DNA of 34,214 nt, taken from NCBI GenBank assembly GCA_944368155.1, contig CALVWW010000013.1:1-34214 (forward strand). Direction: 5' to 3'. Positions 7,546 to 8,169 of this stretch are shown here, in pieces (positions within the stretch are counted from its first letter, which is position 1; each line of letters begins with the position of its first letter). A model generated the notes under the pieces. It did no database searches. It was given only the letters and a program-made list of their open reading frames with translations, and was not told the origin of the DNA. The DNA comes from an uncultured Clostridia bacterium. Its GTDB lineage: Bacteria; Bacillota; Clostridia; Christensenellales; Borkfalkiaceae. Position numbers and translations under genes: made by a program.

Positions 7546-7636
7546 GCAGATGTACCCAAGTGGCTCAAGGGGCTCCCCTGCTAAGGGAGTAGTGCGGGAA
7601 ACTGCAGCGTGAGTTCAAATCTCACCATCTGCGCCA
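7546..7636 (+). tRNA. tRNA-Ser (anticodon GCU)
   Basis: A 91-nt class II tRNA with CCA encoded. The acceptor stem is GCAGATG (7546-7552) with CATCTGC (7626-7632), the discriminator is G7633 and CCA is 7634-7636. The anticodon stem is CTCCC (7573-7577) with GGGAG (7585-7589), and the loop CTGCTAA carries anticodon GCT at 7580-7582, which reads AGC and AGU. A long variable arm, the mark of serine tRNAs, follows. The T arm is GTGAG-TTCAAAT-CTCAC. It has its own promoter and a strong terminator. Confidence 0.97.
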
Positions 7637-7671
7637 AAAAAGCGGAGAGGAAAATTCCTCTCCGCTTTTTT
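7636..7671 (+). terminator. terminator of the tRNA-Ser gene
   Basis: The stem AGCGGAGAGGAA/TTCCTCTCCGCT is extended by an A run and followed by TTTTTT. It begins at the CCA end of the tRNA. Confidence 0.92.
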
Positions 7672-7688
7672 GGTTGTAATTTTGTGTT

Positions 7689-7889
7689 ATGGTGAGATTT
7701 GAGGGCGGGAGGCGCGAGCGAGAGCGAGCGGTTTGCGTACGAATTAAGCAACAGCGGCTTACAATACGCAAACTGAAAGGTGGACACCCACCTTTCACCG
7801 GGGCGCGTCCGCTAAAGGCGCAAATCTCACCATCTGCGCCAACCTATTCACAAAAATGCCGAGCAAGCCGTGCTCGGCATTTTTCGTGA
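7689..7889 (+). repeat. tRNA-derived structured module 1
   Basis: In order: a reverse copy of the tRNA 3' segment (7689-7702); an inverted repeat GTTTGCGTA/TACGCAAAC (7731-7739, 7765-7773) with a small inner stem; a 10-bp hairpin (7774-7783, 7788-7797, loop ACAC); a 42-bp core (7801-7842) containing 22 bp identical to the tRNA-Ser 3' end including CCA; and a terminator-like hairpin (7848-7865, 7871-7889). The reverse copy can pair over 13 bp with the forward copy at 7821-7833 and enclose the whole body. No promoter of its own is clear. There is no protein-coding sequence in it that I trust. Confidence 0.75.
7848..7889 (+). terminator. terminator-like hairpin ending module 1
   Basis: AAAAATGCCGAGCA pairs with TGCTCGGCATTTTT around a 5-nt loop, flanked by TCAC and GTGA. 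The T run is part of the 3' arm. Confidence 0.75.
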
Positions 7890-7890
7890 G

Positions 7891-8127
7891 CTTTAGGGGC
7901 CAGCCCCTCTTTGCGCAATTTTAAGAGCCCGCGAAGTGTATAATTGCGCAAATTCACCCTGCTGAGGCGCAGGTATACGCAAATTGAGTCCTGCTGCGGC
8001 GGGAAACCCGCCTTGCGACATAAGTCATTTTAAAAGCAGGGCGCGTCCGCTCAAGGCGCAAATCTCACCATCTGCGCCAAATGGTTCACAAACATGCCGC
8101 GCACTGCAGTGCGCGGCATGTTTGTGA
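7891..8127 (+). repeat. tRNA-derived structured module 2
   Basis: It has the same order of parts as module 1 with different stem sequences: hairpin AGGGGC/GCCCCT (7895-7908); inverted repeat TTTGCGCAATT/AATTGCGCAAA (7910-7920, 7942-7952); GGCGGG/CCCGCC hairpin (7998-8012) inside CCTGCT/AGCAGG (7990-7995, 8035-8040); a 42-bp core (8039-8080) that differs from the module 1 core at one base; and a perfect 42-bp palindrome (8086-8127). As with module 1, each core itself can close GGCGCA with TGCGCC. It looks like a second, diverged copy of the same element. Confidence 0.75.
8086..8127. terminator. perfect 42-bp palindrome ending module 2
   Basis: Every base from 8086 to 8106 pairs with 8107 to 8127, centred on CTGCAG. 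It takes the place of the terminator of module 1 and shares its outer TCACAAA and ATGCCG. Confidence 0.75.
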
Positions 8128-8169
8128 GACTTGAAATTAATAATTACCTGTAATTTACACTGAACCGTA

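Follow-up and report, generated by a model that had tools for sequence, protein, structure and literature searches.

Few landing sites of bacterial mobile DNA are better known than transfer RNA genes. In integron cassette arrays, the tandem cassettes are bounded by inverted arms able to fold, with variable hairpins enclosed; the rtT repeat of the E. coli tyrT operon, which gives an RNA and belongs to one tRNA family, starts with a tRNA 3' end; and REP/BIME and MITE-like repeats are short, palindromic, non-coding and present in many copies. The Islander definition requires of an island in a tRNA or tmRNA gene an integrase and a length of at least 2 kb (PMC4383910), and small RNAs are reported to form structured segments behind stable-RNA genes, between the double terminators of E. 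coli rrn operons (PMC8144298). The locus analysed here contains a module (positions 7689-7841) that belongs to an undescribed family of small, hairpin-rich modules located behind many tRNA genes of a group of gut bacteria; in the open-licence literature, judged by titles and the beginnings of abstracts, we recognised no description of such an element. The plan of these modules is constant: a tRNA gene, its terminator, a spacer of about 15 nt, an inverted arm copied from the tRNA 3' end in sequence, a structured body of about 80-120 bp, and a direct arm that repeats the tRNA from C56 to its CCA end.

The modules resemble tRNA and tmRNA islands in the intact tRNA or tmRNA gene, the displaced direct 3' fragment, the target genes used and the possible tandem arrays; they differ in that about 130-240 bp rather than at least 2 kb lie between the direct copies, which leaves no room for an integrase gene, and none is present (PMC4383910). 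They also have an inverted arm, and whereas the attachment core of an island is tied to one target gene, the same module body occurs with different arms at tRNAs with different 3' ends. Like integron attC arrays, the modules are tandem cassettes bounded by a foldable inverted-repeat site; unlike them, they have no open reading frame, their boundary lies at the inner end of the stem, their arms vary with the tRNA, they lack the conserved R and L boxes of attC, and no integron integrase exceeds the cut-off in the genome to which the locus belongs (TIGR02249 against its six tyrosine recombinases; best score 60.1 of 265 bits, far below the cut-off). The rtT repeat, which the first-pass annotation of this DNA had named as the closest parallel, is similar in size and in having a tRNA 3' end at its start, but the likeness is otherwise loose, as the modules are not bound to one tRNA and rtT has no known inverted arm. 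REP/BIME and MITE-like repeats differ in that the modules are strictly linked to tRNA or tmRNA genes and carry target-specific arms, and the small RNAs between rrn terminators have no known copied arms or spread over tRNA genes (PMC8144298).

The window, by which we mean the whole 34,214-nucleotide stretch of DNA that was analysed, carries this arrangement at a tRNA-Ser(GCU) gene with an M20 peptidase gene before it and genes for a TMEM164-family protein and a GDSL-type hydrolase after it (Table 1). The first-pass annotation had found the tRNA-Ser 3' end in triplicate, and copies of 22-23 nt are indeed present at 7616, 7821 and 8059; the 42-bp cores that hold the latter two (7801-7842 and 8039-8080) differ by one base, and each is followed, as had also been stated, by a perfect terminator-like hairpin, with arms within 7852-7884 and 8086-8127. 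The inverted copy of the 3' end at 7689-7702 was absent from that description. Positions 7801-7890 and 8039-8128 are 86% identical across 90 bp, and since homologues of module 1 also occur at many other tRNAs, the repeated core is not a product of chance.

Table 1. Features of the tRNA-Ser(GCU) locus, in positions of the window.
Feature	Position	Strand	Remark
tRNA-Ser(GCU) gene (GCT)	7546-7636	+	ARAGORN, Rfam; C56-A76 part is 7616-7636
Terminator-like perfect hairpin directly 3' of CCA	7634-7673	+	
Spacer	7674-7688	+	about 15 nt
Inverted copy of tRNA 3' end, from T55/C56 towards the acceptor stem	7689-7702	+	13-14 nt
Body type 1, four hairpins	7702-7820	+	
Hairpin a of body type 1, tandem G.A, GRRA loop	7713-7730	+	
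Hairpin b of body type 1, variable loop	7731-7773	+	
Hairpin c of body type 1	7774-7797	+	
Hairpin d of body type 1	within 7803-7820	+	
Direct copy of tRNA 3' end, C56 to A76 (copy 2)	7821-7841	+	
Type B dispersed intergenic repeat, terminator-like hairpin at its start	7847-8035	+	outside the tRNA-linked family
Second copy of module 3' core (hairpin d and tRNA 3' end, copy 3)	8039-8080	+	
Perfect terminator-like hairpin	8086-8127	+	21-bp arms

The locus had been read as two tandem copies of one module. This view did not survive comparison, as the supposed second module consists of a dispersed repeat, here called type B, and a second 3' end of module 1; the stems that had been compared as a compensatory pair are likewise not homologous, TTTGCGCAATT/AATTGCGCAAA lying in the type B repeat and GTTTGCGTA/TACGCAAAC in module 1. 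At least 80 nt of 7880-8035 are matched at nine other places in the window's genome at 78-94% identity, with weaker matches besides, and the repeat has many copies in the genus. No tRNA lies near the eleven type B copies that we viewed, in loci of about 3 kb or less (L050-L058, L061 and L063, the last two in one array). The same tRNA is followed by module 1 and only one terminator in a related genome (G131), in which 7892-8038 have no counterpart. Thus, the window holds one tRNA-linked module plus an insertion carrying the type B repeat and a duplicate core. The type B repeat itself is about 190 bp long, begins with a TTCAC...GTGAG terminator-like hairpin, often lies close behind a gene, and contains a stem whose sequence varies between copies while pairing is kept; a tandem array of three is present elsewhere in the window's genome (G000:C31:16.1-16.6 kb).

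In relatives, members of the module family are found behind about 20 tRNA species and tmRNA, and the tRNA gene stays whole at these loci. Body type 1 (that of the window) or a second type with the same ends and habit follows tRNA-Ser, Leu, Arg, Pro, Thr, Ala, Gly, Val, Tyr and Lys genes, mostly 60-80 nt 3' of the tRNA end, and two tmRNA genes have modules about 53 nt downstream (L180 and L176). Among the 33 tRNA genes of the window's genome (G000), three are followed by body 1 or 2 with both arms, namely Ser(GCT), Ser(TGA) and Leu(CAG); at Gly(CCC), Trp and Ala(GGC), each tRNA's own end is copied in inverted and/or direct orientation in arrangements of other kinds. The body of the Ser(TGA) module is homologous (77% identity), but its arms are those of tRNA-Ser(TGA). 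Behind this module is a perfect long palindrome made of the tRNA 3' end and terminator without the spacer (L101), and 3' of tRNA-Trp there is a tandem duplication that begins within the tRNA 3' end, with a direct copy 141 nt downstream (L092).

Of the 93 genomes examined in the genus, 30 contain matches to body 1, not all of them complete. The body lies 62-76 nt from the tRNA end when an intact tRNA comes directly before it, and longer distances are due to arrays in the cases read; many copies without an intact tRNA come after a tRNA 3'-end fragment and its terminator, as left by prophage-like insertions. The second body type gave 65 matches in the loci examined, 54 of them with an intact tRNA on the same strand at most 1 kb upstream, figures in which some overlapping loci are counted twice. 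A genome-wide pattern for hairpin d alone is present in 22 of the 93 genomes and, among the loci examined, in 40 distinct contexts, of which 27 continue with sequence at least 20/21 identical to the upstream tRNA end; among the other 13, ten have no intact tRNA in the stretch examined. At tRNA-Ser(GCT), an arm copy is found at 9 of 28 loci, the window included. A degenerate body-1 module in the window's genome (L265; G000:C1:72.7 kb) follows a tRNA-Ser(gga) 3' fragment about 37 kb from tRNA-Ser(gga) itself (C1:35.8 kb), which looks like a large element inserted between the two. A third repeat type (L194-L196, L199, L205, L207 and part of L021 and L218) has many matches in the genus and is sometimes joined to an inverted arm behind tRNAs.

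A covariance model of body 1 matches 29 of 396 genomes of the order, 24 of them in six genera of the window's family, four in one genus of another family (f16) and one in a third (f28). The last (L263) was taken as false, as it is not at a tRNA end in the stretch read; the two f16 members that we read, located behind tRNA-Glu and tRNA-Gly, keep the plan in a sequence that has diverged. Among 391 genomes drawn from the class, the sole match outside the order was marginal (E 7.6e-4). Ten exact pattern matches were found in a collection of named records; every title reads 'uncultured Clostridia bacterium isolate Lapin-...', a hint at rabbit samples. We found no strain-level pair of empty and occupied module sites.

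The arms follow the target. We surveyed 174 distinct tRNA loci, in a sample where modules are over-represented; 89 of the loci have a direct copy (12 nt or longer) within 260 nt, beginning exactly at C56 in 60 and ending at A76 in 71 of these 89. The inverted copy starts at T55 in 65 of 85 cases; the GA at the start of the body makes a match at T55 automatic, so that only C56 can be relied on as the limit. From the CCA to the inverted copy the median distance is 53 nt (range 35-62; 65 complete modules). In the modules read by eye the inverted arm (as reverse complement) and the direct arm repeat their own upstream tRNA from T55/C56, apart from the lost direct arm at L126 and several others that are truncated or have a change. 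The bodies do not follow the target in this way. In one genome (G002), the Arg(cct), Leu(tag) and Pro(cgg) loci share bodies at 92-97% identity (97% for Arg against Leu), while every locus differs from the others in its arms, spacer and terminator, which fit the tRNA found there; two tRNA-Ser loci of another genome (G223) show the same split, with the hairpin b loop differing between them as well. That loop had been a candidate guide to the tRNA, the tRNA-to-body stretch or the upstream DNA, and was rejected, there being hardly any own-locus excess in 50 modules (longest shared words with own versus foreign loci, largest difference 5.44 versus 5.23, SE 0.14).

Modules also occur in arrays and beside duplications. 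Behind tRNA-Ser(gga) of one genome (G027) the order is X, Y, X, X, where the bodies of X and Y differ and each terminator travels with its body. In 28 of 65 modules the stretch from the CCA through the terminator is nearly duplicated on the left and right. In the right copy the inverted arm is absent in 8 (below 60% identity), ambiguous in 6 (0.6-0.7) and kept in 14. Where the arm is absent (8 loci), identity averages 64% over the 12 spacer bases that precede it and 46% over the arm itself; because the spacer value is already so low, the drop at the arm is only modest. The clearest cases, in which identity falls from spacer to arm from 0.83 to 0.31 (L149), 0.92 to 0.50 (L210) and 0.75 to 0.50 (L295), look like target duplications of about 70 bp with the arm and body between, although this is thin evidence of duplication.

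The alternatives offered by the first-pass annotation, serial att sites or a small mobile repeat, proved the better leads, and the tRNA 3' ends that it had picked out are the key. The explanation to which we give most weight, at something short of an even chance, is that module 1 is a non-autonomous, gene-less insert made at the DNA level at C56 of tRNA and tmRNA genes, with arms derived from the target. Because one body carries different arms at different tRNAs, we propose that insertion itself generates the arms from the target sequence. The body would move or be copied into the T loop, both arms would be copied from the target during the event, and duplication of the 3' end and terminator would leave the tRNA with functional versions of both; P1 (the paired inverted and direct arms) and hairpins a-d may fold as a single-strand or cruciform substrate, which a trans-acting recombinase or replication protein would then recognise. 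Taken together, the fixed T-loop junction, intact tRNA, displaced 3' fragment and arrays are those of site-specific tRNA insertion as described for genomic islands (PMC4383910). No helper enzyme was found. Among candidate enzymes, the Y1 transposase (PF01797) occurs in 28 of 93 genomes, in 14 of 30 with body 1 and 14 of 63 without (p 0.03, uncorrected for relatedness), a weak association, and it is absent from G000, G002 and G016. The most Xer-like recombinase of the window's genome (L277) is nevertheless below the Xer cut-offs. More tentatively, the modules may represent a new, minimal class of mobile element, in which a gene-less multi-hairpin body of 80-120 nt uses the T loop as its point of entry into tRNA and tmRNA genes and takes both arms, one inverted and one direct, from the target, so that one body colonises many tRNAs and forms cassette arrays while the tRNAs stay functional.

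A serious if unlikely competitor is that the module is a conserved non-coding RNA gene between two terminators, whose arms form a stem together, or with the T arm of the tRNA, their match being maintained by selection. The first-pass annotation had proposed selection on structure, and structure is conserved across 40 homologues of module 1, with the hairpins kept in relatives and compensatory changes present. In an alignment of 40 body-1 copies with arms and 38 pairs, 23 pairs change on both sides, in 212 cells against 62.5 in shuffles (none of 500 reaches 212). The signal is gone when the partner is slid by 1-3 columns, a test in which a structure derived from the same sequences favours itself, and one of five measures, the number of further pair types, is no higher than in shuffles (49 versus 49.0). 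In P1, 87.3% of cells are paired and 10 of 13 pairs change on both sides; stem c is wholly replaced between groups of species. The two G.A mismatches of hairpin a, invariant in 40 of 40 copies, its GRRA loop and the invariant unpaired purine-rich stretches of the body also speak for an RNA. So do the direct copies: among ten truncated or lost copies read by eye, nine retain at least the first 9 nt (L126 having lost the arm), for which uniform breaks would give about 0.03 by hand arithmetic, or 0.0065 for the nine alone, and the portion that forms P1 may therefore be constrained.

On the other hand, stems a-d contain 5 G.T and 6 A.C in 1030 cells, as against 38 G.T and 6 A.C in 2016 cells of tRNA terminators (Fisher 0.008 for the ratio), and P1 has 18 G.T and 17 A.C among 519 cells; the module figures are from the alignment, a separate hairpin scan in which module stems looked free of G.T having been set aside because its threshold misses short mismatched stems. 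So few G.U pairs, without the G.U/A.C asymmetry of the terminators, are unlike the usual trace of an RNA and fit folding or correction at the DNA level, though the numbers are small. No Rfam family matches the module, the only matches being far below gathering scores (miRNA-type and a few small RNAs or cis-regulators), and a known RNA family was rejected as its identity. The patchy presence and the mixed tandem arrays also count against an RNA gene, and the occurrence of one body at about 20 tRNAs with re-coded arms would be left unexplained.

The other main rival, which we likewise judge unlikely, is that these are old modules at many tRNAs that no longer move, and that gene conversion, slippage and the correction of palindromes by template switching are all that alters them now. 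The identity confined to bodies coincides with the limits of homology, tandem copies are homogenised within a locus, and near-perfect stems with few G.T pairs fit templated correction. The closest relative of a body-1 copy is, moreover, often the copy at the same tRNA in a related species, which reflects vertical inheritance. For body 1, mean identity is 0.76 within a genome (14 pairs), 0.721 at the same tRNA (52) and 0.712 otherwise (399); for body 2 (36 sequences), it is 0.72 at different tRNAs of the same genome (15 pairs) and 0.739 at the same tRNA in different genomes (28 pairs; label-shuffle p 0.08, several tRNA labels being uncertain). A simple story of recent spread is opposed by the body-2 means, in which same-genome pairs do not exceed same-tRNA pairs, and by the frequent closeness of body-1 copies at one tRNA in related species. 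Against conversion alone, body types differ at the same tRNA between species (body 1 adjoins Leu(cag) in G002 and body 2 in G000), some loci have a duplicated terminator without an inverted arm, and the initial spread still requires an insertion event.

That the modules are attL/attR relics of ordinary tRNA-integrated islands or prophages appears improbable. A regenerated tRNA with a displaced 3' fragment is the classic island signature, and real integrases and attR-like fragments exist at the same tRNAs: four of the six tyrosine recombinase genes (PF00589) of the window's genome lie close behind tRNA genes. These, behind tRNA-Ser(cga), Leu(taa), Leu(tag) and the tRNA at C1:272691-272764 (L279, L280, L281 and L282), are probably occupied attachment sites of larger elements. 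All six, however, lie away from the module locus, and an island would not account for the same 80-120-bp body at many tRNAs or for the inverted arm; the module boundary is C56, whereas in most attR-like fragments inspected by eye the sequence in common with the tRNA starts at T54 or upstream of it. The modules have no space for an integrase, neither of two exact body patterns occurs in viral contigs, and blastn of 7640-8130 gave no match in phage or plasmid records, so that the integrase-carrying element envisaged by the first-pass annotation was not found and a phage or plasmid origin was rejected. SINE-like retroposition, by target-primed reverse transcription at a nick opposite C56 with the inverted arm made by template jumping, is very improbable and disfavoured as the source of the modules: it would yield the precise 3' junction, the duplication of about 70 bp and the arm geometry, and a reverse transcriptase is present in some module-bearing genomes (G037, G104, G058 and G046 with body 1, G001 with body 2), but the RVT_1 domain is absent from six that we examined, the window's among them (G000, G002, G131, G016, G027 and G126), and the enzyme and body 1 avoid each other, with 4 of 30 body-1 genomes having it against 26 of 63 others (p 0.009, opposite to expectation).

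The object observed is more unusual than the one first described. The architecture of the modules is new; their mechanism, and even their mobility, we infer with caution. An island search by the Islander criteria, which call for an integrase and no less than 2 kb, would overlook a gene-less module as small as this (PMC4383910). If the arms are copied from the target, the choice of target would not be encoded in the element, and we know of no recombinase system in which this is so. Should the module prove to be an RNA, it would found a new family of conserved RNAs in which the outer stem is a copy of the adjacent tRNA. In both cases the object is concrete and open to testing, with one junction (T55/C56), one spacing (about 53 nt after the CCA) and many natural variants.
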